A DNA stretch of 64,000 bases from a virus. The position numbers and the translations under genes are program-made. The stretch spans positions 41,076-105,075 of IMG/VR virus record IMGVR_UViG_3300025073_000608; one strand, 5' to 3'. Below the pieces are notes generated by a model. That model saw only the letters and a program-made list of their open reading frames with translations, was not told the origin of the DNA and ran no database searches. Below are positions 42,477 to 60,286 of the stretch, in pieces (positions within the stretch are counted from its first letter, which is position 1; each line of letters opens with the position of its first letter).

Positions 42477-42882
42477 AATTTAAAAATTCTTTAAGAGTTT
42501 TGGGTTTTTTATCTAATATAATATCTTCGCCGAGTTTAGTTTCTTTTAGGTCAACCTTTATGGGGTCAATAGATAGATTAGTATTTTGTTTACTATATTC
42601 AAGTAATTGGTCTGACAAAAAATGTTTCCCTTCTTCTGTGAGAAACCAAACCATAGAAGTAATTTTATAATTGTTAGGTTTAGGACACCAAAATAGAAAT
42701 TCTAATCCATATTTTTTAATTAAACCATTAACAATCTTCATCTGTCCCGCCCAAAAGGAGGGAGTTTTGGGCAAGAATTCACACGTTAAAAATTTACTGC
42801 TTAATTTTTGTTGATTGCTGAGTTTCCTGGGAGCTTTTTTCTTGCTTTGTATTATTTCTTTGTGGTTGGAGTCCTGCTTCAT
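42460..42882 (-). CDS. Hypothetical protein overlapping the GMD gene (140 aa)
   Basis: Family not recognised. The N-terminal ~30 residues are Lys/Gln/Ser-rich and probably disordered. The core FLPKTPSFWAGQMKIVNGLIKKYGLEFLFWCPKPNNYKI looks like a small folded domain. The first 89 nt overlap the end of the GMD gene in another frame. A start at Met48 (42741) would avoid the overlap but cut the conserved-looking TPSFWAGQ segment. Its end overlaps the RecA-like gene by 17 nt, so a recombination accessory role is possible. Confidence 0.5.
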   Translation of the reverse strand: MKQDSNHKEIIQSKKKAPRKLSNQQKLSSKFLTCEFLPKTPSFWAGQMKIVNGLIKKYGLEFLFWCPKPNNYKITSMVWFLTEEGKHFLSDQLLEYSKQNTNLSIDPIKVDLKETKLGEDIILDKKPKTLKEFLNYGKER

Positions 42883-44026
42883 ATAAGTCCCATGATACCA
42901 TGCGTTTTACTAATGAGTCAAATGAAATTTTTGGCTTCCATCCTAATTCGGATTTTGCTTTATTTGGATTTCCGAGTAAAAGTTCTACTTCGTTGGGTCG
43001 ATAAAATTCTTTACTAATATTAACTAAAAACGGATATACCCCATTTGGTTGACGAATGCCGCAGTTACTTTTTAATGGGTCAAAAGATATTCCTTTGAAA
43101 CAATCTTCGACAGTTGTTCCATTTACCCATAAAGCATCTATTCCCGCATGTTTAAAAGCCAAAGTAACAAATTCTTCAATAGTATGAGTTTCTCCAGAAG
43201 CTAAAACATATTCTTTAAGGTTTTTAATTAAATATATCCATACGGTTTTTTTATCACCAATTACATATTTTAATTCGTCATTAAGTTCAATATTATATCT
43301 GTCTTGATTTAGCATTCTCCAGACACCATCCATGAAATCTTCAGCGTGTGACCAATCCCTTTTAGTATAAACATTTCCAAGTTCGATTGGTTTAAAAGGT
43401 TCATTATTTAGTAATGCTTTTTTAATACGAGCAACCCCTTGCGTTATTTTTCGAGTGACGAATTGAGAACCCCTTCTTTCGCTTTCGTGATTAAAAAGAT
43501 AGCCTTGGACAGCATACAAACCATAAGATTCTCTATAGACTTTGACCAGATGCCTAGCGGCACACTTAGCTGCCCCGTAGGGCGACCTTGGCCGCATGGG
43601 ATGAGTTTCGTCTTGTGGGGAGAATAGAACGTCTCCAAACTCTTCTGAGGAACCAGCATTATAAAAACGACATAAAGGAGCATATTTTCTAATAGCTTCT
43701 AAACATTTTAAGACTCCAACTGCCCCGACCATAAATGTCTCTTCTGGGATAGTCCAACTGTCTGCTACAAAAGATTGAGCCGCTAAATTAATAAAATAAT
43801 CTGGCCTATATTTTGACACTATGTTATCAAGAGAAGAACTGTCTGTTAAATCTCCCCTTTCCACCTTAAATAAGGGATTATTTAATAAATGACCGTAATT
43901 TTTATCATTCATCTGAGAGGTTCGTCTAACCATACCAATTACTCTATGTCCCAAATTAAGACAATATTCTGCCATATATGACCCATCCTGACCACTTACA
44001 CCCGTAATAATAACTGTTTTTTCCAT
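42794..44026 (-). CDS. gmd: GDP-mannose 4,6-dehydratase
   Basis: The 410-aa SDR enzyme converts GDP-D-mannose to GDP-4-keto-6-deoxy-D-mannose. It shows TGVSGQDGSYMAEY (NADP-binding Gly motif of GMD), the NLAAQSFV segment, AGSSEEFG (catalytic Ser/Glu), SPYGAAK (Tyr/Lys pair), FNHESERRG and the KRDWSHAEDFM/GETHTIEEF signatures. The catalytic core ends near residue 382 (ELGWKPKISFDSLVKRMV...). The last ~28 residues are a Gln/Lys/Ser/Thr-rich tail, exactly the part overlapping the next gene. It sits near ColD- and ColC-like genes, so its product probably feeds GDP-colitose. It uses host GDP-mannose; no ManC is in the window. Confidence 0.92.
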   Translation of the reverse strand: MEKTVIITGVSGQDGSYMAEYCLNLGHRVIGMVRRTSQMNDKNYGHLLNNPLFKVERGDLTDSSSLDNIVSKYRPDYFINLAAQSFVADSWTIPEETFMVGAVGVLKCLEAIRKYAPLCRFYNAGSSEEFGDVLFSPQDETHPMRPRSPYGAAKCAARHLVKVYRESYGLYAVQGYLFNHESERRGSQFVTRKITQGVARIKKALLNNEPFKPIELGNVYTKRDWSHAEDFMDGVWRMLNQDRYNIELNDELKYVIGDKKTVWIYLIKNLKEYVLASGETHTIEEFVTLAFKHAGIDALWVNGTTVEDCFKGISFDPLKSNCGIRQPNGVYPFLVNISKEFYRPNEVELLLGNPNKAKSELGWKPKISFDSLVKRMVSWDLYEAGLQPQRNNTKQEKSSQETQQSTKIKQ

Positions 44027-44031
44027 AAATT

Positions 44032-44175
44032 TTATTGAAAACTAACTGATAAATGTTTAAATAACCAAATAATAATATCTACCATTTTCCATAATCCTAA
44101 TGGAACAAAAACAACCAATAGCACTACAAATAATTTATAAATAACCTCGAATCCGCGAAATATTGAGCCATCCAT
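44032..44175 (-). CDS. Small membrane protein (47 aa)
   Basis: A short gene fills the gap between the sugar kinase and GMD. It reads MDGSIFRGFEVIYKLFVVLL, then a continuous hydrophobic stretch to IIIWLF and a short polar end (KHLSVSFQ). The ATG has AAAGGAT seven bases upstream, one of the better ribosome-binding sites here, and the stop is 5 nt before GMD. One or two membrane segments (about residues 13-29 and 31-40) are likely. The function is unknown; a membrane anchor or lysis-type role is speculation. Confidence 0.6.
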   Translation of the reverse strand: MDGSIFRGFEVIYKLFVVLLVVFVPLGLWKMVDIIIWLFKHLSVSFQ

Positions 44176-44178
44176 ATA

Positions 44179-44925
44179 TTATCCTTTTATAGTTCCAATT
44201 CCCAGTTTTTGGACTACTTTCGTAGCAACACTATTCGCGAATGGAATAGCAATATTCATATTCTCTGTTTTTACGAAACTAACAGCTAATCCAGCTAAGA
44301 ATGAATCTCCTGCTCCTGATAAATTTTTAATTTCAACAAGTTTAACTGGAAAAATTTGTTCTAAATACTTACATCCATCAGCTCCTAATGTTTCAATAAT
44401 TTTTAATTGAAGTCTTGGGGTTAAACATTTTAATGAAGCTCTATATTCTTTTCGATTAATCTTAATAAAAGTAATATCATTAGCCCACTCTCCAAGAACC
44501 TTCTTAGTATCTAAAAATGTCAGAGGATGATGTTCAGCAATATATTGAATGTCTTTTTCACTCAAGAATCCCTTATCATAATCAGAAATAACTACAGCCG
44601 AACAATGGTCCCACGGAAGGGCTTCTAAAGTTTGACGGTCTATAGGAGAGTATTCTGCTTGGGAATCTATTCTTATAAACATGTGGTTTGTTTTAATATC
44701 CACATATCTAGTTTTAGTAATCTCATGATAATTATTATTAGTAACTATCTCACAAGGAAAATCTAAATCTATAATATTTCGATAGACATTTCCAGCCATC
44801 CCTAAAGTTTTTTCTTGCTTAACTATATCTAAAACTGGGACTGGTGAATCGGGAGCTAGCCTTTCGCAAGTCCCATAAAAAAATACATCTGAGCAAGTAT
44901 CTCCAATAACAAGAATCGGTTTCAT
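44179..44925 (-). CDS. PfkB-family sugar kinase, HldE N-terminal type
   Basis: The 248-aa product resembles the kinase half of HldE/RfaE: GDTCSDVFFYGTCERLAPDSPVPVLD matches the HldE opening motif (Gly-Asp...Asp...Pro-Glu/Asp-x-Pro-Val-Pro). NLSGAGDSFLAGLA (about residues 208-221) is the PfkB catalytic GAGD motif. HldE kinase phosphorylates D-glycero-D-manno-heptose-7-phosphate at C1. Here the chain is shorter than that domain (about 315 aa), the middle is reduced, and no adenylyltransferase domain follows, so the true substrate is uncertain. It lies one base after the ColD-like gene, in the glycan operon. Confidence 0.75.
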   Translation of the reverse strand: MKPILVIGDTCSDVFFYGTCERLAPDSPVPVLDIVKQEKTLGMAGNVYRNIIDLDFPCEIVTNNNYHEITKTRYVDIKTNHMFIRIDSQAEYSPIDRQTLEALPWDHCSAVVISDYDKGFLSEKDIQYIAEHHPLTFLDTKKVLGEWANDITFIKINRKEYRASLKCLTPRLQLKIIETLGADGCKYLEQIFPVKLVEIKNLSGAGDSFLAGLAVSFVKTENMNIAIPFANSVATKVVQKLGIGTIKG

Positions 44926-44926
44926 A

Positions 44927-46105
44927 TCACTTAATATTATTGAGAATATTAAGTAGATTGTCTATTTTTTCTTTAGTTAAAGAAGGATAATTTCCGATAT
45001 ACCATGAAAAATGATGGATAAATTCCATTCGGGGAAAATCTTCCTCGTTTATTTTAACGATAGATTTTAAATATGGTTGTTTTAATTGACTCCCGCCGCC
45101 AGAAAGTCCCCTTCTAAATTCTATACCATTTTTATTTAATGTTTTTTCTATCTTATCTCTTAATTTAAAACTTCCATTTCTTAGGATAACAATAAAAGCA
45201 TAATTACATTGTCCTTGTAAATTTAACTCTTTATGATATAAATCTGGTCTTAAACCATCATAAAAGTATTTAAAGTTTTCTTGTCTTAGTTTATTATTTG
45301 AGTCTAATTTTTTAAGTTGAGATAATCCTAATACTGCATTAATTTCTGTACTTCTAAAATTATGAGATGGAGCAATGAATACAAAGTCTTGATTAAGAGT
45401 AGGATTTTCTTTTAGTATTTGTTTTTTAAATACTTCATGTGTTGATTCCCTTAACATCCCATGGGAACGCAAACACCTTAATACTTCATAGAATTTACGA
45501 TTATTAGTACAAACCATTCCTCCCTCAATGGTGGACATATGATGAGCAAAATAAAAACTAAAATTACTAGCAAATCCAAAAGAACCACATTTTTTATTCT
45601 TAAATGTTGTTCCATGACTTTCACATACATCTTCTATTAATAAAATATCGTTTTCTTTACATATATCTAAAATCCGTTGAGATAGTCCGTTTATACCCAA
45701 AACATGAGTTAGGAAAATAGCTTTGGTAGAAGGGGTAATTAATTTAAAAAGTTTTTGCTCGTCAAAAGAAAGATTTCCAAAATTAATATCACAAAAAACG
45801 GGCTTCATATTCGCATGAATAACCGCAGAAATATCGCTGACCCACGTTAACGGAGGAACAATAACCTCTCCAACCCCATAAAGATATTTAATAGCTAACA
45901 TTGTTAACTCATTTGCTGAACTTCCAGAATTAACAAATAAGCTGTATTTCACCCCAAGCCACTTAGACCATTCTTTTTCAAATTCTAATACTTTTGGGCC
46001 ATTAGTAAGTTTCGGTATAGGTCTTTGAGAGAGAAATTCTTGAATACATTGAATATCTTGTTCGTCAATATTTTCCGCCATTAATGGATGATTAATTTGA
46101 TTCAT
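44927..46105 (-). CDS. ColD-like GDP-4-keto-6-deoxymannose 3-dehydratase
   Basis: The 392-aa protein is of the DegT/StrS PLP fold (VNSGSSANEL, VIVPPLTWVSD, IEDVCESHG). The Schiff-base lysine is replaced: the motif reads SFYFAHHMSTIEGG with His188/His189. The His replacement is the hallmark of 3-dehydratases such as ColD (GDP-sugar) and E1/RfbH (CDP-sugar). The GDP version is favoured because GMD and an Fcl/ColC-type enzyme flank it, and I see no E1-type iron-sulphur cysteine pattern. It would remove the C3 hydroxyl from GDP-4-keto-6-deoxy-D-mannose using PLP and glutamate. Length matches ColD. Confidence 0.82.
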   Translation of the reverse strand: MNQINHPLMAENIDEQDIQCIQEFLSQRPIPKLTNGPKVLEFEKEWSKWLGVKYSLFVNSGSSANELTMLAIKYLYGVGEVIVPPLTWVSDISAVIHANMKPVFCDINFGNLSFDEQKLFKLITPSTKAIFLTHVLGINGLSQRILDICKENDILLIEDVCESHGTTFKNKKCGSFGFASNFSFYFAHHMSTIEGGMVCTNNRKFYEVLRCLRSHGMLRESTHEVFKKQILKENPTLNQDFVFIAPSHNFRSTEINAVLGLSQLKKLDSNNKLRQENFKYFYDGLRPDLYHKELNLQGQCNYAFIVILRNGSFKLRDKIEKTLNKNGIEFRRGLSGGGSQLKQPYLKSIVKINEEDFPRMEFIHHFSWYIGNYPSLTKEKIDNLLNILNNIK

Positions 46106-46106
46106 A

Positions 46107-47009
46107 TTATTTTCTGATATTAGGATAATTATTTAAATACCATTCAATGGTTTTTTCTATTCCATTTTCAATTGACGTAAATGGGAAGTCATTTAATGAT
46201 AATAGCTTATTTCCGCTTAAACGTCTAATTTTCTGTCCAGATGGTTTAGTGGTATCAAACTCTAATTTATTTTCTATTCCGAACGCACGAGCTATTAAAG
46301 TTGCAATATATTTTATTTTAATAGTCTGATTATTACAAAAGATTAATGGTTCTTTATCGTTATAATATTCTAAAGCCCATTCAGTTAATTTTGCCACGTC
46401 ATCTACATATAAAAATTCTCGTTCTTGTTCTCCATCACCCCAAACAGAAAAAGAGGTATCATTTAATTTCGCTTGATGAGCTTTATATATTAATACTCCT
46501 ATTACATGTCCGGTTTCTAGATTAAAATCATCATTTGGGCCATAAATATTAGTTGGAATAATACAATTATAAATTAATCCATGTTCTTCATAGCAAATAC
46601 GACTTTGTATTTCTAGCATTCTTTTCGCGAATCCATAAGGATAATGGACTTGCGCCGGAAATCCAATATGTAAATCTTCTTCTTTATAAGGTCTATTTAT
46701 TTCTTCTGAAAAAATACATGAAGATAAAAACGATAATACTCTTGGGACATGCATGTTTTTACATGCTTCCAAAACATTAGTATTAATTAAAATATTATCG
46801 TAGAATAACTTATATTTTTGTTCGATATGAAATTTTAATCCCCCAACCTTTGCAGCACAATGAACAACCGCATCTGGGCGATGAGACATAAACAAGAGGT
46901 TGCATTGGTCTTTATCTCTTAAATCATATTCGTGAGAAGAAAAACCTATTCCAAAGTTTAAGTTCTGACCAACTGTTCCAGTTTTTCCAGTTATTAGTAT
47001 TTTTTTCAT
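46107..47009 (-). CDS. GDP-L-fucose synthase family, probable GDP-L-colitose synthase (ColC-like)
   Basis: The 300-aa extended SDR has TGKTGTVGQNL (nucleotide-binding), HCAAKVGGL, the YPYGFAKRMLE Tyr/Lys pair, IPTNIYGPNDDFNLETGHVI, GDGEQEREFLYVDD and KPSGQKIRRL. These are all signatures of the Fcl/WcaG 3,5-epimerase-4-reductase. Adjacent to a ColD-like dehydratase it probably acts as ColC, performing the 5-epimerisation and 4-reduction that yield GDP-L-colitose. If the neighbour is not ColD, GDP-L-fucose would be the product. It overlaps the SGNH gene by 4 nt (ATGA) and ends one base before the ColD-like start. Confidence 0.82.
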   Translation of the reverse strand: MKKILITGKTGTVGQNLNFGIGFSSHEYDLRDKDQCNLLFMSHRPDAVVHCAAKVGGLKFHIEQKYKLFYDNILINTNVLEACKNMHVPRVLSFLSSCIFSEEINRPYKEEDLHIGFPAQVHYPYGFAKRMLEIQSRICYEEHGLIYNCIIPTNIYGPNDDFNLETGHVIGVLIYKAHQAKLNDTSFSVWGDGEQEREFLYVDDVAKLTEWALEYYNDKEPLIFCNNQTIKIKYIATLIARAFGIENKLEFDTTKPSGQKIRRLSGNKLLSLNDFPFTSIENGIEKTIEWYLNNYPNIRK

Positions 47010-47647
47010 GATTTTAATGCTTTTTTAATTTTTCTCACGATAAAATTATGACCAGCGTCATTATAGTGAATTCCTGCATCCATAGTATATTTTAATTTAA
47101 ATTTTTCGTCTTGTGGCAGAAAAATTGTTTCGTCGGCCAGTTTAGATATTCTATTAATATTATTTAGGTTTAGTTGTCTATAGTCCTCTCCAAAATGAAT
47201 CACTTTATTTTCGAAAACTGATAAATATATACCATGAGGACTTAAAAAAACTATTTTTTTGCAATATTTCCTAAACGTTTTAAAACAATCTTTTTCTTCT
47301 TGTTCGTTTTGATAAAAAAACAAATTTGTATTCATGAACGGTGGACGTTGATACAAAAAAGCTTTTTCAAATCTTCTATATTTGGTATTTAAATAATATT
47401 CCCATATCGTTTTAGGCCAAGGCAAAACTCCATTATCATGTATTCCAACTTGAATTATTAATATATCAAATTTCTTATTTAAATCAATAACAAACTCTTC
47501 TAGTTTATTTAGGGTATTAATATGAAATTGAGAACCAATATTAAAATAAGTAAAAGAAAAATTCGGTAATAGACGTATTAATTTATTTATGTATGAGTTT
47601 CCTTGTGGGACAGTTCCACGAGAATCAGATAAAATCAAAACATTCAT
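47006..47647 (-). CDS. SGNH/GDSL-type hydrolase (213 aa)
   Basis: The protein begins LILSDSRG, the block I Ser motif at Ser9. It continues with IIQVGIHDNG (block III-like) and ends with the DAGIHYNDAGH Asp/His block. SGNH enzymes are esterases, deacetylases or acetyltransferase-type domains that act on glycans or lipids. Sequence and layout closely resemble the N-terminal domain of the next-door SGNH-FAAL-ACP fusion (shared LxDSR, KTFR, FLSPHG/FINMHS patterns), so the two are probably paralogues. No signal peptide, hence cytoplasmic. It starts 12 nt after the fusion gene. Confidence 0.65.
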   Translation of the reverse strand: MNVLILSDSRGTVPQGNSYINKLIRLLPNFSFTYFNIGSQFHINTLNKLEEFVIDLNKKFDILIIQVGIHDNGVLPWPKTIWEYYLNTKYRRFEKAFLYQRPPFMNTNLFFYQNEQEEKDCFKTFRKYCKKIVFLSPHGIYLSVFENKVIHFGEDYRQLNLNNINRISKLADETIFLPQDEKFKLKYTMDAGIHYNDAGHNFIVRKIKKALKS

Positions 47648-47659
47648 ACTTCATATCTT

Positions 47660-50017
47660 TTATATTGGTAATACTGCTATAATTCCATCAATATTATCAA
47701 TTTTGTCTAAATCAATACGAAAACTATCTTTGGTTAATAATTCTTTATTTAAAGATACCCCTGATTTTTCTAAGAATAGAATTAATTCAAACAGTTCCAA
47801 ACTATCCAATAAACCAGAGGTATATAATCTGTCGCTTATTCTAATACTCGGTTTATTTTTTTCAGCCAAGAATTTATTAATGATATTTAATATTCCTATT
47901 TTTTTAATTAGTTTTTCCCCAGAACGAAAACGGCTTATTTTACCACTGGAAGTTTTGATTAAAAACGATGGATTTTCTATAAATACAGTAGGGGAGACTT
48001 CGTATAAATTTTTAACAGTTAAAGATATTTCTTTAGAGATAACGTCAGCAAGAGATAAGTCGTTTGTTTCAGCAATAATAAATGTTCTACATGTTCCTAG
48101 TTCATTATCTTGGATTCCAATACAAGCTATTCTTCCTGGGGTAATTCCTTTGATACCATCAAGACTTTTTTCAACTAATTCTGGATAAATATTAATTCCA
48201 AAAGAAACAAAATTGTCTTTATTTCTTCCAGCTACAAAAATTTCTCCATTATATATTAATCCTAAATCTCCAGTATCATAATATCCATATTTATTTAGAG
48301 TCTTAGTTGTAATAGTATTACTTTTAATATAAATTTTACCAACAACTGGTTCCCCAGTAATATCTTCTTCGTTATCATTTAAAATTAAAACAGAAATCCC
48401 CTGCATAGCTCTACCGCAACTTGTTAATGAAAAACCATTAGCTAGTGTTATTGAAGATAGAGAATTAGATTGACTGACGGCAAATACATTTTCCGCTAGG
48501 GCATAACAATTAGCTATCTGACAATTAAGTTTATTATTTTTATATTTTTCAATAAATTTATTAATATCTTTATTGAATGAAAGCTCAGAACAACTAATTA
48601 AAAATTGTAAAGAAGATAAATCTATTTTAGATATATCGTCTTTTTGATTAGCCAAAAACGAAAAAACAAAATTCGGCCACCAAACATGAGTAGCTTTATA
48701 TTTCTCAATCATTTCTAATATTAACACTGGGCGAGAAAGCCATAAAAATGTATCTATATATGCAACTGAACAATCCATAACAACAGGAATAATAACCGAA
48801 GTAATTAATCCCATATCGTGATATAATGGTAGCCAAGAAACAATAGAACTATACTGATTGATGTTAGAAATAAGAGCATATTCTTCGACATTCTCTATTG
48901 CTTGCTTATGTGTTACTTCTAATATTTTAACGTCACCAGTGGTTCCTGATGATAATTGCAAAAAGGCGACATCATCAGAAGAATAATCAATCAAATCTAA
49001 TTCATATCTATCATTGTGAGGATTATTTATAGTAAATGCCGCGTTAAAAAATGTCTTAAGCGACGAAAAATATTTTTCCGAACAAAAACAAAATGATGGA
49101 TTTACTATTTCTTTTATTCTTTGTAACTTTTTATGAAATTCTGAAGAATGAACTTTAACTGAAGGATGTTGTATAATCAATGGAATACGATTATAAAGAA
49201 TACATCCCCAAAAAGCAGCAATTAAATTGGAAGTCAAATCATCGCACAAAATTACTTTATCTCGTTCCTGTGTATTATTTGCAATAAATGAACCTATTCT
49301 TTTGGATTCTTCAAAAAGAGATTTGTGTTTAGATGAATCTGCTAATAGGTTGGGTAATATTTTGTGTGCTCGTTGAATATATCTGGCTAAATAAGTAGCA
49401 ATATAATTAATTCCATGAAACATATAATGCAACCTATCAGGTAAACAACAATTAGATATCCATTCATTGTCTTGTGGTAAAGAAAAAGAATCGCAATCAA
49501 CAGGAGAAAATCTAAAATTAGCTTCTAGTTGTTTATATTGATGAGTCATTCCAAGACCATACTCTTTATTTAAATCGTTTGGTGGCCGAACAGAATGCAT
49601 ATTAATAAAAATAACATTTCTTCCTCTTGACCTAAATGTTTTAAAAACAGATTTTTCTTCTTTTTCGTCTTTATATAAAAATTTAGATTTACCATTATTT
49701 TCTATTTTATCAATAAGAGAAGATTGGTTAAATTCTCTGGTTTTGGTATTTATAATCTCTTTCCACGTTTCTTCGGGCCAGAAGCATGGTCCTCCCTCAT
49801 GCCATCCCGCTTGAATAATGATAATATCGAATACTTTATCTGGGAATTTGTCCAAAAGAAATTCTTCCATCATATTAATAGATGCAAGCCATTTATCTAT
49901 TCCGCTAATATAAGACGTGATATTATATCCTTTACCAAGCATCTGTTGTAATACATTAGGCCAACTATATTCTCTCGGCCACATAGCTCTAGAGTCTGCT
50001 AAAATAAGGATTTCCAT
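47660..50017 (-). CDS. SGNH hydrolase - fatty acyl-AMP ligase - acyl carrier protein fusion
   Basis: The start is set at ATG 50017 (MEILILADSRAMWP), 4 nt after the upstream stop, giving 785 aa. Residues 1-230 form an SGNH-like domain (ADSR with Ser9; DRLHY with Asp194/His197). Residues 240-700 are an adenylate-forming ligase: LSSGTTGD, WLPLYHDMGLI (a FAAL signature), YDTGDLG, GRNKDNFVSFGINIYP and TSSGKISR. Residues 700-785 resemble an ACP, with LLDSLEL placing the phosphopantetheine Ser near 739. The protein would activate an acyl acid as acyl-AMP, load it on its own carrier domain and possibly pass it to a sugar through the SGNH domain. The acyl substrate is unknown. Confidence 0.8.
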   Translation of the reverse strand: MEILILADSRAMWPREYSWPNVLQQMLGKGYNITSYISGIDKWLASINMMEEFLLDKFPDKVFDIIIIQAGWHEGGPCFWPEETWKEIINTKTREFNQSSLIDKIENNGKSKFLYKDEKEEKSVFKTFRSRGRNVIFINMHSVRPPNDLNKEYGLGMTHQYKQLEANFRFSPVDCDSFSLPQDNEWISNCCLPDRLHYMFHGINYIATYLARYIQRAHKILPNLLADSSKHKSLFEESKRIGSFIANNTQERDKVILCDDLTSNLIAAFWGCILYNRIPLIIQHPSVKVHSSEFHKKLQRIKEIVNPSFCFCSEKYFSSLKTFFNAAFTINNPHNDRYELDLIDYSSDDVAFLQLSSGTTGDVKILEVTHKQAIENVEEYALISNINQYSSIVSWLPLYHDMGLITSVIIPVVMDCSVAYIDTFLWLSRPVLILEMIEKYKATHVWWPNFVFSFLANQKDDISKIDLSSLQFLISCSELSFNKDINKFIEKYKNNKLNCQIANCYALAENVFAVSQSNSLSSITLANGFSLTSCGRAMQGISVLILNDNEEDITGEPVVGKIYIKSNTITTKTLNKYGYYDTGDLGLIYNGEIFVAGRNKDNFVSFGINIYPELVEKSLDGIKGITPGRIACIGIQDNELGTCRTFIIAETNDLSLADVISKEISLTVKNLYEVSPTVFIENPSFLIKTSSGKISRFRSGEKLIKKIGILNIINKFLAEKNKPSIRISDRLYTSGLLDSLELFELILFLEKSGVSLNKELLTKDSFRIDLDKIDNIDGIIAVLPI

Positions 50018-50021
50018 AATT

Positions 50022-50801
50022 TTAATTAAATCTTTCTTTCCAAACATTGGGATATTTTTTCCAATTTAATCTATCAATACAACTAACTAAATCGTCAAGT
50101 GGTTCGCTATATTTTAATCTAAATTTTGGGTCATCTTTCAATATTTGGGTAAAATGTATGGGTGCATGGTCGCCACTGGTTCCAGGCATATGGCCACATT
50201 TTAATAATGGAAAAGACGATAAAATAGCTTTAATACCAACGTGTTGACTTCTTATAGCTAAATCTGCATGAGCCATTGGGCAGGTTTCAAAATGACAATC
50301 AAATCCCCCAATTCTATCAAAAGTTGTTCTATACCAAATAACAGAATTAAAAATTAACCAATGACTAGGAATTACCATTGGATTTACTGGATAAGCATTA
50401 ACAATTTTATAATAATCATCGTTTTGATAATCATTTTCTCTGGATAAATTTTCGCTTTCTGAATACTTACAAACAACTACATGTTCATCGTTATATTTAG
50501 AAAGGATATCAATATTATTATCCAAAGAATCTTGAATTAAAAAACAATCATCTGCATGAGTGGGATATATAAATGTTCCTTCACACAAAAGACTTCCTAT
50601 AGCAGATGCTCTTACTGGAGAACCGAAATCTCTAACATATTTAATATTTTTATATTGTAAAAGATTTTCTGGTAATTGGTGTGGTCCCACAATAACTAAT
50701 TCAAAAGAACGCCTTGTTGAAGACAAAATAGATTCATATACTTTTGTCCAGTTCTGCGGACGAATAGCTGGCATTAAGATTGAAATTTCTGGTTTTGTCA
50801 T
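50022..50801 (-). CDS. GT2-like glycosyltransferase
   Basis: The 259-aa protein has a GT-A-type start (ISILMPAIRPQNWTKVYESI...FELVIVGP), HADDC in the metal-binding DxD position (about residue 88), and GGFDCHFET near the acceptor site. It ends WKKYPNVWKERF. It is clearly paralogous to the product of 52884-53720: both share SIRP/AIRP, GGFDC, HMPG/HLPG...GDHAP/GDHGP and the terminal W..FPN(I/V)W..RF. It overlaps the methyltransferase gene by ATGA. Substrates are unknown; it probably adds a residue of the phage glycan. Confidence 0.7.
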   Translation of the reverse strand: MTKPEISILMPAIRPQNWTKVYESILSSTRRSFELVIVGPHQLPENLLQYKNIKYVRDFGSPVRASAIGSLLCEGTFIYPTHADDCFLIQDSLDNNIDILSKYNDEHVVVCKYSESENLSRENDYQNDDYYKIVNAYPVNPMVIPSHWLIFNSVIWYRTTFDRIGGFDCHFETCPMAHADLAIRSQHVGIKAILSSFPLLKCGHMPGTSGDHAPIHFTQILKDDPKFRLKYSEPLDDLVSCIDRLNWKKYPNVWKERFN

Positions 50802-51376
50802 ATAGATAGAGCTTTTACCGCTTCAATATTTAGACTAACTAGTTTTCCTTTTATTTCATCAGTTAGTCTTCTAGATTTATATTCAATACTTGGCAAATAA
50901 CATTGAGAGTAATCATCAATATAAAAATGTTCTGTTTCCCTCCAATCATAACGATGGATATTTACGAAATCTAATCCTTTTAATAAACTAGTTAAATACT
51001 TTTCATTAAAACCAATATAATGAAAATCATAAGCATGTTTTTGGGAACCAAACATTAAATTTGTAATGGCTTCTAAATCTCTTGTTTGAATATAATATTC
51101 ACACAAAGCCTCAAAATCTGGGACAGAAATCCTTAAAATACCACCTGGTTTTAATATCTCATTCCAGCGGATTAATATTGGAAGAACTTCGTCTCTTTTG
51201 CAATGTTCAAGCATATGACAAGTATAAATAACATCAACACTATTATTTTTAAACGAAGATAATAGGAAGCAGTCTTCTACTAGGTCTGGAGAGCATTCTG
51301 GACGGATATCTATGTTAATATATCCATGTATTTTCCGATGGTAACACCCCAAATGTAATTTGATAAGTTCTGACAT
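50798..51376 (-). CDS. SAM-dependent methyltransferase
   Basis: The 192-aa class I methyltransferase shows LHLGCYHRKIHGYINIDI (SAM-binding motif I, with INIDI as the acidic end of beta2), VDVIYTCHMLEHCKRDEV (motif II) and EILKPGGILRISVPD (motif III), typical of the predicted methyltransferases in sugar clusters. It probably methylates a sugar hydroxyl or carboxylate. It starts 2 nt after the upstream radical SAM gene and overlaps the GT2-like gene downstream by 4 nt. The acceptor is not determinable. Confidence 0.8.
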   Translation of the reverse strand: MSELIKLHLGCYHRKIHGYINIDIRPECSPDLVEDCFLLSSFKNNSVDVIYTCHMLEHCKRDEVLPILIRWNEILKPGGILRISVPDFEALCEYYIQTRDLEAITNLMFGSQKHAYDFHYIGFNEKYLTSLLKGLDFVNIHRYDWRETEHFYIDDYSQCYLPSIEYKSRRLTDEIKGKLVSLNIEAVKALSI

Positions 51377-51378
51377 AA

Positions 51379-52887
51379 TTAGTCTCCTAATATTTTTCTT
51401 TTTAATCTAATATTTAACATGTTTTGTATTTCTGTTTTAAAATTAGGTCCAAATTTTAATGTCATTTTTTCCAAATAAGATGGGTTACTAAAATATTTAA
51501 TTACCGCTTCGTCACGAAATTTAAGAATTTCATGATTTTTTAATACTTCTGTCGGAAGATTAAACGTTTCGTAAGCGTGTTGAGAATATCCTATCCATCC
51601 GACGCCATTGTTTTCTGGTAAAACAGATGGATTATGTTGAGAAAAATCTCTGTGTAATTGACTTCCAGGATAACCCATAGCACAATACATATTAGCATAT
51701 TCGCCATTTAAGTTCATAGCTAAATCTAACGTTGATTGCATTGTTTCAATGGTGTCTGTTGGTAACCCAAATATAAAATTATTCATAGAACAAATTCCAT
51801 GATTTTGAATTTTAGAAACAATATCATGAATATTTAATTCTTGAAATTTACCCTTAATGACTTCTTGCCTTACTTTAATATTACCAGATTCAATACCTAG
51901 TGCTAGCCAATTTACTCCAGCTTTTTTAAGAATATCTAAATATTGTTCTCTTACGGTGTCTATTCTTGCGTAAGCCCAAAAATTAAATTTCATCCCGCTA
52001 TCAATAACACCCTTACAAATTTCAAGAAAATGGGGTGGTTTTAAGACAAACATTTCATCAGCTATTTTAACATTAGTAACCCCCTTATCAGTAAAACCCC
52101 TTAAAATCCTTAATGTATGAGCGGGCGACCAAGTGCGGAAAGTATTATTTTTATTATCCCCATTATTAAATGGAGAATTAATCATACAAAAAGAACACTG
52201 AAAAGGACATCCCAAACTGGTATATAAAGATAAAAATGGTTGAGTTTTATTTTCATTAGTCCAACTATGCCAATTAGAAGTTCTATACTGTTCTAAAGGA
52301 AGAAGGTCAAGAGGCAAATTCGGAATATCATTATCTAAGTCTCGTAATAAAGGAGCAGAGCAATTTCCCTCTATCTTTCCAGAAATATAATTAAAATACC
52401 ACAATCCAGGAACTTTTTTCCTATCGCTAATATCTTTGTGATTTTTTTGTTTTAATAATATATCCAATGTAATTGGACCTTCCCCCTGACAAACCAATGC
52501 TCCTGGGTCGTCTTCTATAGTTCTTATCGGTAACGAAGAGGGGTGCGGACCAATATAGATACGAGTAATATCTAAATCAGCCAATTTATGCATAATGTCG
52601 ATTGCCCCTGTCATATTTTGTGTCGAGGCTGATGGCTGTTGCCCATAAACAACCATACCAATTACTTTTGGAGATTTATTTTTAACGATTGTATATACTT
52701 CTTTTGGATTTAACCTTAAAGCTTCGCAGTCGAGTATTTCTACATTCCACCCTTTATTTATAAGATAAGAAGCAATCATTAACGCCCAAATTGGGGGTTC
52801 TATAGCTGAAAAATTATTACTAAGGTCTTGATAGACTCTTTTAGCAGAATTCGGATGAATAAGTAGGATATCTAAATCGTTTTTCAT
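51379..52887 (-). CDS. B12-binding radical SAM enzyme
   Basis: The 502-aa protein has an N-terminal cobalamin-binding-type Rossmann region (residues 1-145: ILLIHPNSAKRV, GMVVYGQQPSAST, YIGPHPSSLP, VCQGEGPIT). The radical SAM core follows, with CPFQCSFC holding Cys227/231/234 for the 4Fe-4S cluster, then LALGIESGNIKVRQEV and NFIFGLPTDTIETMQ. The family catalyses radical methylation and other C-H chemistry. In this context the target may be a nucleotide sugar or a glycan. It overlaps the flanking GT2 gene by ATGA. It is one of two such enzymes here, not close paralogues by eye. Confidence 0.82.
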   Translation of the reverse strand: MKNDLDILLIHPNSAKRVYQDLSNNFSAIEPPIWALMIASYLINKGWNVEILDCEALRLNPKEVYTIVKNKSPKVIGMVVYGQQPSASTQNMTGAIDIMHKLADLDITRIYIGPHPSSLPIRTIEDDPGALVCQGEGPITLDILLKQKNHKDISDRKKVPGLWYFNYISGKIEGNCSAPLLRDLDNDIPNLPLDLLPLEQYRTSNWHSWTNENKTQPFLSLYTSLGCPFQCSFCMINSPFNNGDNKNNTFRTWSPAHTLRILRGFTDKGVTNVKIADEMFVLKPPHFLEICKGVIDSGMKFNFWAYARIDTVREQYLDILKKAGVNWLALGIESGNIKVRQEVIKGKFQELNIHDIVSKIQNHGICSMNNFIFGLPTDTIETMQSTLDLAMNLNGEYANMYCAMGYPGSQLHRDFSQHNPSVLPENNGVGWIGYSQHAYETFNLPTEVLKNHEILKFRDEAVIKYFSNPSYLEKMTLKFGPNFKTEIQNMLNIRLKRKILGD

Positions 52888-53720
52888 ATTTTATTAACTA
52901 ACAAATTATTTTTATCAAATCTTCTTTCCCATATATTAGGAAAATTCTTCCAATCGTCATAATTTAAATTAATTCTTTGTTTTATATCTAGGGTTGAGTT
53001 TCCGTAGATAGAATTAAATCTTGTAATGTCTGGTCCTAATTGAGCATCATTTACTGGTCCATGGTCGCCCTGCTGGCCAGGAAGATGAGAACAATAAAAA
53101 GCAACCACAGGAAGACTTACAATTTGTCCTCCATCTGATTGAACTCTAAAAGCTAAATCGTGTAAAGCATGATTGCTATATTCATAATTACAATCAAATC
53201 CACCAAGCCAAAGAAAATAGTTCTTCTTAATAAAGAAATGCATACATAATTTATAATTAACGGGAATTCCCGGTAATCTTAAATCAGCATGAGAATGGGC
53301 AATCCAATAATATGGAGAGAAATGTTCATGATTTTCTTTTAAAGGTAAAAGAGTTATCGGGTCTAATACTCCTTCATCATACCTCATATTTATCATATCT
53401 TTGAATGTCAATGCTTCTCTATGAAGGTCAACAGCAATATCAATAACATTGGGTTGTAATAATCCATCATCTGTTGTATTATAAATAAATTCCCCCCTAG
53501 CTAAAAGAGCCGCCATTTGAAAACAAATAGTTGGATTAGCGTAAGTATGAATAAATACAACATTTCCTTTTTTCATTAATTCTTCTGGAATTAGATATGG
53601 ACCAGGAATTATAATTTCAAAAGAATATCTCTGACAAGCATTTTGAGCTGATTCATAAAATTTAATCAGATTTTCTGGGCGAATAGACGGTAAAATAATA
53701 GATACGTCTGGACTTTTCAT
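52884..53720 (-). CDS. GT2-like glycosyltransferase (paralogue of 50022-50801)
   Basis: The 278-aa product begins VSIILPSIRPENLIKFYESA and has FEIIIPGP, TTDDG in the DxD position (about residue 88) and LGGFDCNYEYSNHALHDLAFR. It ends WKNFPNIWERRF. The match to the 50022-50801 product extends over the whole length, so the pair arose by duplication or by import of related genes. It is flanked by two radical SAM genes, with ATGA overlaps on both sides, indicating tight co-expression. Donor and acceptor are unknown. Confidence 0.7.
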   Translation of the reverse strand: MKSPDVSIILPSIRPENLIKFYESAQNACQRYSFEIIIPGPYLIPEELMKKGNVVFIHTYANPTICFQMAALLARGEFIYNTTDDGLLQPNVIDIAVDLHREALTFKDMINMRYDEGVLDPITLLPLKENHEHFSPYYWIAHSHADLRLPGIPVNYKLCMHFFIKKNYFLWLGGFDCNYEYSNHALHDLAFRVQSDGGQIVSLPVVAFYCSHLPGQQGDHGPVNDAQLGPDITRFNSIYGNSTLDIKQRINLNYDDWKNFPNIWERRFDKNNLLVNKI

Positions 53721-55501
53721 ATTAATTGAAATCCTATTGGATTTCTTTGTTTTTTAGTTGAGTTACTTTTTCTTCCATGTAAGACTACTTTGGTAGCAAA
53801 CTCTTTAGTAGAACTATAATCGTAAGGAGAAGGGAGATTATCTTGTTGAACAGAAAAAACTGTCAATAACTCCGCAAACTTACTTTTTATGTCTATACCT
53901 TTAGACATCAAAAATCCCACAGTTATTTGAAATAATTTTTGAAAGAATTTATTAGGATTTAAGCATAACAATAAAAAAACAAATTCTTCTGGGTCATAAT
54001 ATATTGACCCAAATCTAGCATCATGTTGACATCTCCTTTCCCCATCTGTAATGTCGTTTGCTACTCTCCATAATAATTTTACTTCATCCATATCGCATTT
54101 AGAGATAAATTCAAAATAATCTGTAAATTTGATTTTATATTCTTTAATAAGAAAATTAATAATTTCTTCGGCAGCTTTAAGCCCATATAAAGATTGAGCT
54201 AACCAAGAAATAACGGCACACTTTTTCCATTCTTCTTGGGACATTGAATTAGTTCCAATAACTATTTCCTCAAATTCTTGAACGATAGAATTATCTCGAA
54301 CACTACCATGAACTTCCGCTAGTGGGATTTTAACAGTTTTTAAACCATATTTTGAAATATAATCTTTTTCTGCCATCGCTGTATTTGGAAGAACTTGACA
54401 ATGATAAATAAATACCTGATTATTAATAACAGATTCTAGGGTTTCTTCTAGTCCAGACAAAAATGAAGAATATGTTTCTCCTGGAAGACCTAATATTAAT
54501 TCGGTATAAGTAGGGATTCCCGCTTCTGTATATTTTATTTGTAATTGTTTAAATGTTTTAGTATTAATATTCGAACGATGAATATTGGCTAATACAGATT
54601 TATCGTTAGATTGTTTCGCTAGCGTTACTGTTTTAGCTAAATTAGCTTTAGATAATATTAAAGCTGTATTAAATATATTTTCTGTTGTATTTTTCCCATA
54701 ACAAACGCGAAACTTATCTGGATATCCATATTCTAATTTAATATCTGAAAATAGTTGGGCTACATCAATATCTCTTTTATACATTCCAAAATTTGCGTCT
54801 GCACAGAAGATATATTCTACTTGATTTTTTGCAAGCCATAAGGCTTCTTGCTTTGTATATTCAAGAGAATGGAAGACAATCTTCTTATTTAAGTCTGATT
54901 GTCCCCAAAAACAAAAATCACAAGAGAATGGACACGAACGATTTGTTTCTACTATTGCTTTAAATTTAATATCTTGATTATCTTTAATTAATTGGTCAAA
55001 TAGTCCTAATGAATATGGTGACGGAAAAACATCTATTTCTTTAGTTGTAACATCATTCTTTAATGTAATATGATGGGGAAAATTATTCTCCCTTTTTAAA
55101 TATTTAATTAATAAATCTCGGAATATAATTTCTCCCTCCCCAAATATTCCTATATCTATAAAGGGATTTTCAATATAAAAATTACTGTTTAATGGAACTT
55201 GTGGTCCACCAAAGATAATTAGACAATTAGGAAATCTATTTTTAATTTCTTTCGCAACCGCCAAGTTTAACTGATGATTCCAAATTGATGATGAAAAACA
55301 AGCTATATCTGGATTTTCATATCTAGATAAAATATTTAATAATGGTTCCCTTCGAAACAAAAATTCTTGAAAATCAAAATTAAGTCTAACATCTTCGTCC
55401 TGAAGACAATATGCTAATAACAATCCTGACGAATAGGGAAAATAAACAGTGTTATCTGTTGGAATGTTAAACTCATTAAAATAAACTTTAATTTTTTTCA
55501 T
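53717..55501 (-). CDS. B12-binding radical SAM enzyme (594 aa)
   Basis: The N-terminal ~170 residues resemble a B12-binding Rossmann domain (VYFPYSSGLLLAYCL, IACFSSSIWNHQLNLAVAKEI, IIFGGPQVPLN, GEGEIIFRDLL). The canonical DxHxxG is not evident, as in base-off members. The radical SAM cluster motif CPFSCDFC (Cys190/194/197) follows, with TYTELILGLPGETYSSFL further on. A C-terminal ~200-residue extension is unassigned. The enzyme is probably a radical SAM methylase or other sugar-modifying enzyme. It overlaps the next gene by ATGA and starts 5 nt after the SDR gene. The substrate is unknown. Confidence 0.8.
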   Translation of the reverse strand: MKKIKVYFNEFNIPTDNTVYFPYSSGLLLAYCLQDEDVRLNFDFQEFLFRREPLLNILSRYENPDIACFSSSIWNHQLNLAVAKEIKNRFPNCLIIFGGPQVPLNSNFYIENPFIDIGIFGEGEIIFRDLLIKYLKRENNFPHHITLKNDVTTKEIDVFPSPYSLGLFDQLIKDNQDIKFKAIVETNRSCPFSCDFCFWGQSDLNKKIVFHSLEYTKQEALWLAKNQVEYIFCADANFGMYKRDIDVAQLFSDIKLEYGYPDKFRVCYGKNTTENIFNTALILSKANLAKTVTLAKQSNDKSVLANIHRSNINTKTFKQLQIKYTEAGIPTYTELILGLPGETYSSFLSGLEETLESVINNQVFIYHCQVLPNTAMAEKDYISKYGLKTVKIPLAEVHGSVRDNSIVQEFEEIVIGTNSMSQEEWKKCAVISWLAQSLYGLKAAEEIINFLIKEYKIKFTDYFEFISKCDMDEVKLLWRVANDITDGERRCQHDARFGSIYYDPEEFVFLLLCLNPNKFFQKLFQITVGFLMSKGIDIKSKFAELLTVFSVQQDNLPSPYDYSSTKEFATKVVLHGRKSNSTKKQRNPIGFQLI

Positions 55502-57428: not shown

Positions 57429-58371
57429 TGTTTAAATATGATTCTGCGCGAGACATTATTTTATTCCAAAAAATTGTAATGTTAAAACGCTGTTGATAAG
57501 CTTCATGTCCCGATTGAGCTATCTTTAATCTTTCCTCCTCGTTCTCTAAATAGTAATTGACTTTATCTAATAAATCTTTAGGGGAAATAAATGGAACATA
57601 TTCTTTATTGGGAATGAATAATTTTTCGGTTGCTGGATTATCTGACTCTAATAGTAAACAATTACTAGCTGTGGCCTCAAATACTCTTCCTTTTACTTGG
57701 TGATAACCAAGTGGGTGATATGAAAAATTTACTATTATTTGCGATTCTCTAGTGATTTGGGCGTATTCCTCGAAAGACAAACGATGTTCTCTTTGCCCAC
57801 TTTTCACTATAGCTTTAGGATAAACTTCTGAAAGCATAGACATTGATGCCTCTCTGTATGGATAAAGGCGTCCTACGAATGAGACTTCTCTAGTTTTATC
57901 ATCTGGATAAAAAAGATTTGAATCAAGCGGGGTCCATAATACTAAATCGTTTTCTTCATATTTTCTTTCGGGAATATAAGAAGCATCCATGAAAACATTA
58001 ATGTCTGTAATTGGTCTTAAATAATTAATGAGAGCCAAATCATTTGGGTTACTATCGCACCATAAGAAGCAAATAAAAATTCCTAATTGTTTAAGTTTTT
58101 GAAAGCATTCCAGAGAAGGATTCATTGGGGAGTTCCCCAAAAGAGAAACAATAACTATTTTTATATCCCAACTAAGGCAATAGCGAGGAAGGATATCATC
58201 TACATGCTTTCCAAAAACAACTCCAGCTTCGTCAATATGAAGGGTGTTAAAATTATAGTTTCTTTGGGTTTGACTGAATGTATTAAAAATATCAGTCATT
58301 GTATGAGTAAATCCAAAATTAGGATTACCATCGGCCCATTTTTCGGTTACAAATAAGACATTATTTTTCAT
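57421..58371 (-). CDS. CgeB-like glycosyltransferase B
   Basis: The start is placed at ATG 58371 (MKNNVLFVTEKWADGNP), aligning with the paralogue; an in-frame ATG 15 nt earlier is less likely. The 316-aa product shows VSFVGRLYPYREASM, KSGQREHRLSFEEYAQITRESQIIVNFS, KGRVFEATASNCLLLESDNP and LFIPNKEYVPFISP, the CgeB/Glyco_trans_1_2 pattern. It overlaps the preceding E1-beta gene end by 11 nt. With its tandem copy it presumably adds two related sugars in sequence, or one enzyme is a diverged spare. Donor unknown. Confidence 0.75.
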   Translation of the reverse strand: MKNNVLFVTEKWADGNPNFGFTHTMTDIFNTFSQTQRNYNFNTLHIDEAGVVFGKHVDDILPRYCLSWDIKIVIVSLLGNSPMNPSLECFQKLKQLGIFICFLWCDSNPNDLALINYLRPITDINVFMDASYIPERKYEENDLVLWTPLDSNLFYPDDKTREVSFVGRLYPYREASMSMLSEVYPKAIVKSGQREHRLSFEEYAQITRESQIIVNFSYHPLGYHQVKGRVFEATASNCLLLESDNPATEKLFIPNKEYVPFISPKDLLDKVNYYLENEEERLKIAQSGHEAYQQRFNITIFWNKIMSRAESYLNND

Positions 58372-58891
58372 TATAAAAATCTCCATATTCTACTAAAATA
58401 GTAGATTTTCCGTCTTCTCTTTCTAGAGCCTTTTTATATGATAGAAATATCTGTTCTGGTTCATCTAATCGAATAACCTCAATGTTAGGACACATTAATC
58501 TAAAGGCATCTGAAAAATCTCCAACATGTTGATACTGAGGATGTAATGGTCTTTCAGAGCCAATACTTGTTCTTATAATAACCTTGGTTTTATATCCAGA
58601 AAAAATAGGAAATTTATCAAGATGATTGACTATTTGATTTGTGGCAAGAAGTAGGAAATTCCATCTTGGAAATATACTAACAGGAATAAGTCCGGCTAAA
58701 GCTAAACCATTAGAAACACCAGCTTGCAATTCTTCATTTACCGGAAATTCTATTCGTTTATATTCAGGAATATCTTTTAATGTGTTACTTATCGCAGTTC
58801 CAGCATAAATAACAGCCTGCCCCAAAAATATGGTTTTTGGGTTATCGGCTAAAAACTCCATTGATTTTTTTAATTCGTTGAAATATCTCAT
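58361..58891 (-). CDS. Thiamine-diphosphate E1-type enzyme, beta-like subunit (short)
   Basis: The 176-aa protein resembles the pyrimidine-binding (transketolase-central) domain of E1 beta subunits. FPVNEELQAGVSNGLALAGLIPVSIFPRWNFLLLATNQIVNHLDKF contains the Glu that activates thiamine diphosphate (about residue 53). RTSIGSERPLHPQYQH follows. It lacks the C-terminal transketolase domain of full-length beta chains (about 325 aa). It is encoded one gene after the alpha-like subunit, with a GT2 gene between. The reaction may be a decarboxylation or ketol transfer giving an unusual sugar precursor. Confidence 0.65.
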   Translation of the reverse strand: MRYFNELKKSMEFLADNPKTIFLGQAVIYAGTAISNTLKDIPEYKRIEFPVNEELQAGVSNGLALAGLIPVSIFPRWNFLLLATNQIVNHLDKFPIFSGYKTKVIIRTSIGSERPLHPQYQHVGDFSDAFRLMCPNIEVIRLDEPEQIFLSYKKALEREDGKSTILVEYGDFYNEK

Positions 58892-58892
58892 A

Positions 58893-59663
58893 TTAAGGAT
58901 TGACGTAAAGTTGTTGTCCTGCCATAAAGTCTTCTGCTAGCTGGGCGACAATTTTCATGTCATAGTTATTAGTTGACCAATCATAAGGAAAAGAGTATTT
59001 AGTATTTACTTGATATTGAACCGTTGGGCATCTCCATTTAAATGGTTCGAATGGTTCTTGTTTAGATATAAAAAATCCTAACCAATGGTCTGGAAAATGA
59101 TGTTTAATTTTGGGATGAAAAAGATATCCTTGGAGTTCTTTCTCAACAGTTTCTCTTAAAAAAAATGGAAGAGGAATTACAGCATATGGAGTATAAGCAG
59201 GATTAATACATAAATGTGGAGCAGTAATTGGCCATCTAAATCTTTCGTCTCCATCAATGGCGTTTGGGTCATGATGTCCATACATTAATAATCCAGGGCC
59301 AGCATCCCATAATGTATTAGATATTTTGAAACGTTTTTGTTTCATAAAATCCGATTCCATCCAAGCTTGCATATCTAAATAATTAGGAGGAAGGATTATA
59401 TCTTCTATCATCATAGCTATATAATCTCCATCAGTAAACGAATATGCGTAATTAAATGCGAAAATGCTTCCAGAACATTCTTTGTCTATAATTATTTTTA
59501 TATTATATCGTTTTAAAAAATCTTCGTGTTGTGGATGTATAGACGATTGTGGACAACAGACTATTAGTTCCATATCGTGTTTTGGTAACGATAAAATAGA
59601 AATAATTGTATCTTGACTAAATCCCAAGTCTTTGTTAGTTGCTAAAATATATGAAGTTTTCAT
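58893..59663 (-). CDS. GT2-like glycosyltransferase between the two E1-type subunits
   Basis: The start is set at ATG 59663 (MKTSYILATNKDLGF), whose A overlaps the upstream TAA (TAATG); the longer in-frame version would run backwards through the E1-alpha coding end. The 256-aa product has a GT-A-like fold: TIISILSLPKHDMELIVCCP, CSGSIFAFNYAYSFTDGDYIAMMIEDIILP (MIEDI in the DxD position, about residue 92) and a C-terminal YDMKIVAQLAEDFMAGQQLY. The substrate is unknown. It is unusual in lying between the alpha- and beta-like E1 genes. Confidence 0.6.
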   Translation of the reverse strand: MKTSYILATNKDLGFSQDTIISILSLPKHDMELIVCCPQSSIHPQHEDFLKRYNIKIIIDKECSGSIFAFNYAYSFTDGDYIAMMIEDIILPPNYLDMQAWMESDFMKQKRFKISNTLWDAGPGLLMYGHHDPNAIDGDERFRWPITAPHLCINPAYTPYAVIPLPFFLRETVEKELQGYLFHPKIKHHFPDHWLGFFISKQEPFEPFKWRCPTVQYQVNTKYSFPYDWSTNNYDMKIVAQLAEDFMAGQQLYVNP

Positions 59664-60286
59664 TAAAATTGAATTCGTGACCCAGAACCGGCATGTGGCC
59701 ATTTGTTTTTGTATTTATAATATCTTATGTATTTTTTAGAAGACTTTGGAAGCTGATATTCAAAAGTAAGGATTTCCATATTCCAAGTTTTTCTTGTATC
59801 AGTGCATACAGAAAGTCCATTATCTTCCACAATAAACACAATAGGTAAATCGTAAGAAATACTATATTTTAAGCTCTCCCACATAATACCTGTCTCAGAA
59901 GTCATATCTCCCACAAAACAATAAACTTTTTCATCTAATCCTTGTCTTTTAATAGCTAGGGCTGTTCCGACAGCAATGGGAACCGAGCCCCCAACTATAG
60001 CAGAACAGAATATCTTATAAGATGGAAAGGATAAAGAAATAGATTTTCCATCAAGAATAGCTTGTTTTAATTGTTCTGGGGGAACTCCTTTTAATAAACA
60101 TTGATAATGACTTCGCCAAGCAGAAAAAACCCAATCTTGAGGACGAATTTCTTGAAAAACGTTAATCATTTCTTCTTCGTTATTTGAATAAAGATGAATG
60201 GGAGCTTTAATCATCTTCTGATTAAAACATTGAGCAATGTCTTCCTCAAAATCTATGAGGTTTTGTTTTGTTAAATTTGTTATCAT
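59663..60286 (-). CDS. Thiamine-diphosphate E1-type enzyme, alpha-like subunit (short)
   Basis: The 207-aa product has the E1-alpha pattern: WVFSAWRSHYQCLLKGVPPEQL (substrate-channel region), IVGGSVPIAVGTALAIKRQG, and the thiamine-diphosphate motif GDMTSETG...EDN with Gly126-Asp127 and Asn156. It is shorter than metabolic E1-alpha chains (320-400 aa) and ends PHAGSGSRIQF, which looks like a natural C-terminus. No lipoyl E2 or E3 gene is nearby, so this is not a dehydrogenase complex. It pairs with the beta-like subunit at 58361-58891. A C-C bond reaction in sugar-precursor synthesis is inferred. Confidence 0.72.
   Translation of the reverse strand: MITNLTKQNLIDFEEDIAQCFNQKMIKAPIHLYSNNEEEMINVFQEIRPQDWVFSAWRSHYQCLLKGVPPEQLKQAILDGKSISLSFPSYKIFCSAIVGGSVPIAVGTALAIKRQGLDEKVYCFVGDMTSETGIMWESLKYSISYDLPIVFIVEDNGLSVCTDTRKTWNMEILTFEYQLPKSSKKYIRYYKYKNKWPHAGSGSRIQF

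Follow-up and report, generated by a model that had tools for sequence, protein, structure and literature searches.

Fatty acyl-AMP ligases (FAALs) have been described in bacteria, plants, fungi and animals (PMC8460268). Viruses and phages are not mentioned in the text of that survey, and searches of the open literature yielded no publication on a FAAL encoded by a phage. In FAALs, a blocked coenzyme A (CoA) pocket and a FAAL-specific helix exclude CoA and favour a holo acyl carrier protein (ACP), while a further hallmark, the FAAL-specific insertion (FSI), matters less (PMC8460268). In the Dlt pathway, a carrier operates together with a membrane MBOAT protein and an SGNH protein (PMC12148441). 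Here, we describe a 785-residue protein in which an SGNH-like domain, a FAAL-like acyl-AMP ligase and an ACP-like carrier are joined in one chain. Its gene lies at positions 47660-50017, on the minus strand, of a 64,000-nucleotide stretch of viral DNA (the window) that spans positions 41,076 to 105,075 of the IMG/VR record IMGVR_UViG_3300025073_000608.

The phage protein appears to unite three of the four functions of the Dlt pathway, those of ligase, carrier and SGNH protein, on a single polypeptide, with no counterpart of the membrane step. It resembles the Dlt system in having an AMP-forming ligase, a carrier that best matches DltC, and an SGNH-type protein, and the Dlt system acts on a polymer of the cell-envelope type. 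It differs in being a single chain, in that no MBOAT partner was found in the phage records, and in that its ligase is of the FAAL type rather than DltA, the ligase of the Dlt pathway. By analogy, the protein may work like DltA, DltC and DltD in one soluble chain, without a membrane step, which would be a working likeness and not membership of the pathway. With FAALs such as EcFAAL (PDB 3pbk), the olefin synthase FAAL (7r7e) and the adenylation-peptidyl carrier protein (A-PCP) part of McyG (4r0m), the ligase shares the fold, the core motifs, the residues that block the CoA pocket, the helix and the pocket prolines, and like them it is paired with a carrier. In contrast to them, it lacks about 20 residues of the FSI, carries a YALAENVFAV signature, is fused to an SGNH-like domain, and belongs to a phage glycan cassette without a condensation domain of nonribosomal peptide synthetases (NRPS). 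In fold, the SGNH-like domain comes nearest to the thioesterase TesA and the SGNH O-acetyltransferase PatB. The domain matches both in predicted fold and in the positions of the Ser and of Asp-x-x-His, but has a His for the block III Asn, belongs to no sequence family and apparently lacks a signal peptide.

Domain organization of the phage protein

The original prediction had placed the three domains on one chain at 47660-50017. The gene is indeed found there, on the minus strand, as are all domains and residues given below, whereas the translation of the plus strand is riddled with stops. The motifs WLPLYHDMGLI and LLDSLEL, and the residues Ser9, Asp194, His197 and Ser739, also lie where they had been predicted. 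Translation from the ATG at 50017 gives 785 residues plus stop, and from an alternative in-frame ATG at 50047 it would give 795 residues. According to alignments, the position equivalent to 50017 is the start both in a paralogue and in a full-length homologue (40% identical) in another viral contig, L018. The gene follows the stop of the upstream gene after 4 bases and is separated from a 213-residue gene downstream by 12 bases.

The viral nature of the parent record (105,075 bases) is supported by its genes for a DNA polymerase and a UvsX-like recombinase, together with a ribonucleotide reductase gene on a second record of this virus that overlaps the first. The closest DNA polymerase to that of the phage matches at 28%, and no tRNA was found in the window or in the left 40 kb of the record. 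Misassembly or a chance fusion is ruled out by two further IMG/VR records (136,838 and 58,241 bases), in which the DNA is identical across the 19 kb surrounding the gene, and by the 40% identical homologue, which retains the SGNH-FAAL fusion. The 785-residue chain is thus a real, uncommon phage protein. Regarding its anatomy, the ligase and the SGNH-like fold are very secure, and the carrier somewhat less so.

The ligase (residues 223-705; 47903..49351) is the most secure of the domains, FAAL-like with one classical feature reduced. Its prediction as a FAAL was borne out by Pfam (PF00501, E 1.8e-29), by NCBIfam (fatty acyl-AMP ligase model, E 1.7e-53), by the PDB (McyG A-PCP, 4r0m, E 3.5e-38), and by Foldseek matches of the fold to McyG, the olefin-synthase FAAL and the E. 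coli FAAL (E 3e-32 to 2e-29). The ANL fold is present with core motifs (SSGTTG, YALAE, TGD and TSSGK) and the A10-motif lysine, Lys693 (47939-47941). The correspondence with E. coli FAAL 3pbk was read by hand from a phmmer alignment. The residues W224, M231 and F279 of 3pbk are matched by W395, M402 and F450 of the phage ligase, the WLPLYHDMGL motif spanning residues 395-404 (48806-48835), and the FAAL-specific helix T252-R258 is matched by T423-R429 (residues 423-429, within 47903..49351). In the alternative pocket, P107, P226 and T252 correspond to P285, P397 and T423, and T83 is replaced by Leu261. These conserved residues predict an active ligase that prefers a carrier over CoA. As the FSI is reduced, we call the ligase FAAL-like, of the FAAL clade.

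The SGNH-like domain comprises residues 1-222 (49352..50017) and is supported by its AlphaFold model, Foldseek, and alignment with the paralogue and L018. The model, computed with a three-sequence input, has a mean predicted local distance difference test score (pLDDT) of 72 and a predicted template modelling score (pTM) of 0.77. It shows the alpha/beta/alpha SGNH topology that had been anticipated, and Foldseek relates it to TesA, PatB and GDSL esterases (E 1e-5 to 1e-4, prob 1.00, TM about 0.5-0.57). A Pfam search assigned the domain to no family, and the L018 copy gave a sub-threshold Lipase_GDSL match (E 0.055). Ser9 of block I (49991-49993), and Asp194 (49436-49438) and His197 (49427-49429) of the block V Asp-x-x-His, are all retained in the L018 homologue. 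Ser9 and His197 are present in all three phage-type copies, and Asp-x-x-His in both fused copies. His73 (49799-49801) replaces the block III Asn, and the domain is therefore named SGNH-like and considered non-canonical. Of the SGNH assignment in the original prediction, the fold and the Ser, Asp and His have held up, the canonical set of residues has not, and the choice between hydrolase and transferase could go either way. The free SGNH-like paralogue (213 residues; 47006..47647, minus strand) is the next gene downstream and is 33% identical to the N-terminal domain. No relatives of the domain were found among annotated phages.

The carrier (residues 706-785; 47663..47902) is called ACP-like because it has no Pfam match and its NCBIfam matches are under the cut-off. 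Its phosphopantetheine Ser739 (47801-47803) is embedded in SGLLDSLEL, and SGLLDSLELFEL makes a good phosphopantetheine site with the D/E-S-L motif. Among 18,950 NCBIfam models, the top two were DltC (E 0.0045) and the ornithine-lipid (OlsHI) ACP (E 0.0067), both below cut-off. In L018, the counterpart is a separate open reading frame of 83 residues with the motif GLLESIEM (37.5% identical, E 4.7e-8), and its top NCBIfam match is again DltC (E 0.0075). The phage carrier also aligns with bacterial carrier domains (hhalign prob 90.6). The carrier had been expected from its motif, and this motif, the weak DltC and OlsHI matches and the separate L018 gene speak for it, whereas a Pfam match and a confident fold model did not materialize. 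The notion of a self-contained unit that would activate and carry an acyl group stands, as judged from the sequence.

Relatives in phages and bacteria

According to the original prediction, this architecture matches no known standard phage protein, and the searches agree. No locus in 50,697 annotated phage records covers 80% of the 785-residue protein. A search of 2.9 million viral contigs found a single further lineage with an SGNH-FAAL fusion, namely L018, with 40% identity over residues 1-780 and a separate carrier. L018 shares at least 12 cassette genes with the window (24-63% identical), of which those of a split thiamine pyrophosphate (TPP) enzyme are the best conserved (56-63%), but no virion gene of L018 matches one of this phage. 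The motif YA[LM]AENVFAV is common to both phages, and occurs also in a GC-rich IMG/VR record of 35.6 kb (L019) and in two bacterial genomes. L019 encodes, at 2429-5377, a 982-residue protein in which an N-terminal domain without assignment is followed by a carrier (PF00550, E 0.007) and a FAAL, which is a third domain order. Two other candidates were not used as phage relatives. In Acinetobacter phage MD-2021a (CAKLQH020000009.1, L014), the stretch looks bacterial, with lasI, sdiA and an NRPS operon, and MT835562 carries an NRPS with an adjoining gene similar to phosphopantetheinyl transferases.

The three-domain architecture is not confined to phages. Fused proteins of about 815-900 residues, in the order FAAL-SGNH-carrier, occur in one bacterial class, which belongs to the phylum of genome G003, in 22 of its 48 species, not counting a 23rd match that is a mere 85-residue frame. 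Among 398 sampled genomes of the phylum, all full-length matches come from the genomes already counted here. In 10 aligned copies, GDSH, GEPECR and the block V His-Leu are invariant, and the carrier motif is LDSL in seven, IDSL in two and LDSV in one. The bacterial proteins contain the same three domains as the phage protein and share the FAAL motif YA(L/M)AE(N/H)VFA. They differ in domain order, in a highly diverged SGNH domain (with GDSH and GEPECR), in being non-phage and in a longer insertion; the spacing from YALAE to SCG is 39-63 residues in the bacterial fusions, 22 in L018 and 23 in L019. Since the permuted order recurs in bacteria with invariant SGNH motifs and a conserved DS carrier motif, the association of the three domains appears to be functional and not due to chance. 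We do not claim a common origin of the fusion, because the FAAL-domain tree has long branches and does not resolve whether the phage and bacterial three-domain FAALs belong to a single clade. A search of 200 genomes of the phylum, run without a positive control, found no SGNH domain of the phage type. A gene for an FkbM methyltransferase adjoins the relatives in L039 and L019. In L068 (8400-11744), an FkbM methyltransferase is fused C-terminally to a bacterial FAAL-SGNH-carrier protein of 1114 residues.

Proposed function and alternatives

The fusion gene is surrounded by a cassette of sugar kinase, dehydratase, epimerase, aminotransferase, methyltransferase, radical S-adenosylmethionine (SAM) and glycosyltransferase-like genes. 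We propose, with the balance evenly poised, that the 785-residue protein is a one-chain enzyme for loading an acyl group and transferring it to a phage-made glycan. A phosphopantetheinyl transferase of the host would prime Ser739, as none (PF01648) is present in the phage records. The FAAL-like domain would then form an acyl-AMP with the help of Lys693 and load the phosphopantetheine arm of the carrier, not CoA. Finally, Ser9 would accept the acyl group from the carrier and transfer it to a hydroxyl group, or perhaps an amine, on a sugar or glycan that the products of the adjacent genes synthesize. For the transfer mechanism as such, the case for and the case against are about equal.

Besides the sequence and fold evidence given above, two considerations favour this proposal. 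The records of the phage (G000, G001 and G004) contain no match to MBOAT (PF03062), for which the controls did match, and no acyltransferases of the AT3 and hexapeptide types. They also have no match to NRPS condensation domains (PF00668), which argues against an NRPS or polyketide synthase loading module, although ketosynthases were not searched. The two SGNH-like domains are therefore the sole recognized takers of the acyl group. Absence from these records is not final, since they may be fragments. Further, a glycan acceptor is favoured because the gene lies in a glycan cassette that is common to both phages, while the virion genes are not shared. Of the targets suggested originally, a phage glycan or a host lipid or sugar, the neighbourhood thus favours the phage's own glycan as the candidate acceptor. 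A wider formulation is more tentative, and we hold it a little below an even chance. It states that the protein represents an SGNH-type acyltransferase of the cytoplasm that consists of one chain, depends on a carrier and decorates sugars made by the phage, by an adenylation-carrier-SGNH route without a membrane acyltransferase, in a phage cassette and, rearranged, in a bacterial class.

Several observations weigh against the proposal. In block III (G71-W-H73-E), the oxyanion-hole Asn is a His, as in L018 (GWHE) and the paralogue (GIHD), and the block II Gly39 of the fusion protein and the paralogue is missing from L018, so that the domain may merely hydrolyse or bind. The paralogue has Ala at the Asp194 position. 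The FSI is shortened, with 23 residues from YALAE to SCG compared with 42-43 in other FAALs, which makes exclusion of CoA less than certain. The carrier region has no Pfam match (PF00550), and its fold is modelled without confidence, with pLDDT <50 across most of 723-741 and 749-785. Several cassette genes belong to no family and could include an unrecognized acyltransferase. The bacterial forms have no evident glycan operon around them, and their SGNH domains align weakly with those of the phages (hhalign prob 29.8). The acyl transfer itself is a step that we infer.

Among the alternatives, the best surviving, if unlikely, one is that the SGNH-like domain is a built-in, TesA-like thioesterase, which clears misloaded carriers or frees the acid, and that an unrecognized acyltransferase of the cassette uses the acyl-carrier. 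The presence of TesA, an acyl-CoA thioesterase, among the closest solved folds would fit this possibility, as would the cassette genes without family and the adjoining free paralogue, since one copy could transfer and the other hydrolyse. However, no recognized acyltransferase family is found in the phage records, and fusion of the SGNH domain in the two phages as well as the bacterial class goes beyond the need of housekeeping editing. Somewhat less probable is use of the acyl group elsewhere than on a phage glycan, on a host lipid, a host surface polymer, a signal molecule or a protein. FAALs usually supply lipids, polyketides and lipopeptides (PMC8460268), and the bacterial homologues lie outside any obvious glycan operon. 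Yet the glycan cassette surrounds the gene in both phages, an NRPS condensation partner is absent, and FkbM methyltransferases adjoin, or are fused to, the bacterial or prophage relatives (L039, L019 and L068).

We consider it more doubtful still that the SGNH-like domain is non-catalytic and binds sugar or serves as a scaffold, with the acyl-carrier delivered to the glycosyltransferase-like neighbour that makes the bond. The altered block III, the lack of conservation in block II and the lack of a Pfam family would be explained, but not the persistence of Ser9 and His197 in all three phage-type copies and of Asp-x-x-His in the two fused ones, nor that of GDSH and the block V His-Leu in all 10 aligned bacterial counterparts. 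Despite the missing Pfam match, the low pLDDT and the short FSI, it is very improbable that the last 80 residues fail to function as a carrier and that the protein is an acyl-CoA ligase of the ordinary kind with an esterase attached, because the two top NCBIfam matches are carriers, the separate 83-residue homologue in L018 best matches DltC, and the residues that block the CoA pocket are retained.

That a phage encodes its own acid-activating and -carrying unit, within a glycan cassette, points to acylation of sugars by phages themselves. Virions could be masked, or the host surface changed, in this way. The permuted recurrence of the three domains also offers a compact model of how an SGNH domain fed by a carrier could transfer acyl groups with no partner in the membrane.

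Genes of the glycan cassette

The cassette genes from 42794 to 52887 and the two genes of the split TPP enzyme are on the minus strand. Directly upstream of the fusion gene, 50022..50801 encodes a probable glycosyltransferase-like protein without Pfam or NCBIfam match, which may be of the GT-A type and whose homologue in L018 (43%) occupies the corresponding position. It is related to the product of 52884-53720; both lack a Pfam, NCBIfam or PHROG family, have homologues in L018, and are probably glycosyltransferases. Between them lie genes for a SAM methyltransferase (50798..51376; PF08241, E 5.3e-6; 46% to the L018 cassette) and a B12-binding radical SAM protein (51379..52887; PF04055 and PF02310; 49% to the L018 cassette). 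The latter matches HpnJ/BchE-type models, and a second protein predicted to be of radical SAM type is encoded at 53717-55501.

On the other side of the fusion gene, the cassette encodes a GDP-mannose 4,6-dehydratase-like protein (42794..44026; PF16363, E 3.7e-101; TIGR01472, E 2.1e-97), a sugar kinase like domain I of HldE/RfaE (44179..44925; TIGR02198, E 6.3e-32; 47% to L018 and 51% to cyanophage S-SM2), a DegT-type sugar aminotransferase (44927..46105; PF01041, E 2.8e-68; L018 homologue 30%) and a GDP-fucose-synthase-like epimerase/reductase (46107..47009; NF047922, E 6.7e-54). The split TPP enzyme consists of an E1-beta/transketolase pyrimidine-binding half (58361..58891; PF02779, E 6.4e-8; 63% to the L018 cassette) and an E1-alpha half (59663..60286; PF00676, E 8.7e-17; 56% to the L018 cassette), the latter with cyanophage relatives. 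The surface-sugar clusters of the cyanomyoviruses S-SM2 and P-TIM68 resemble the cassette in a related HldE-like kinase (47-51%) and an E1/transketolase-like TPP enzyme, and differ from it in that FAAL, SGNH and carrier were not detected in them. In these two cyanophages, the halves of the TPP enzyme are fused, and the gene stands beside those for a heptose-type kinase, a nucleotidyltransferase and a phosphoheptose isomerase.
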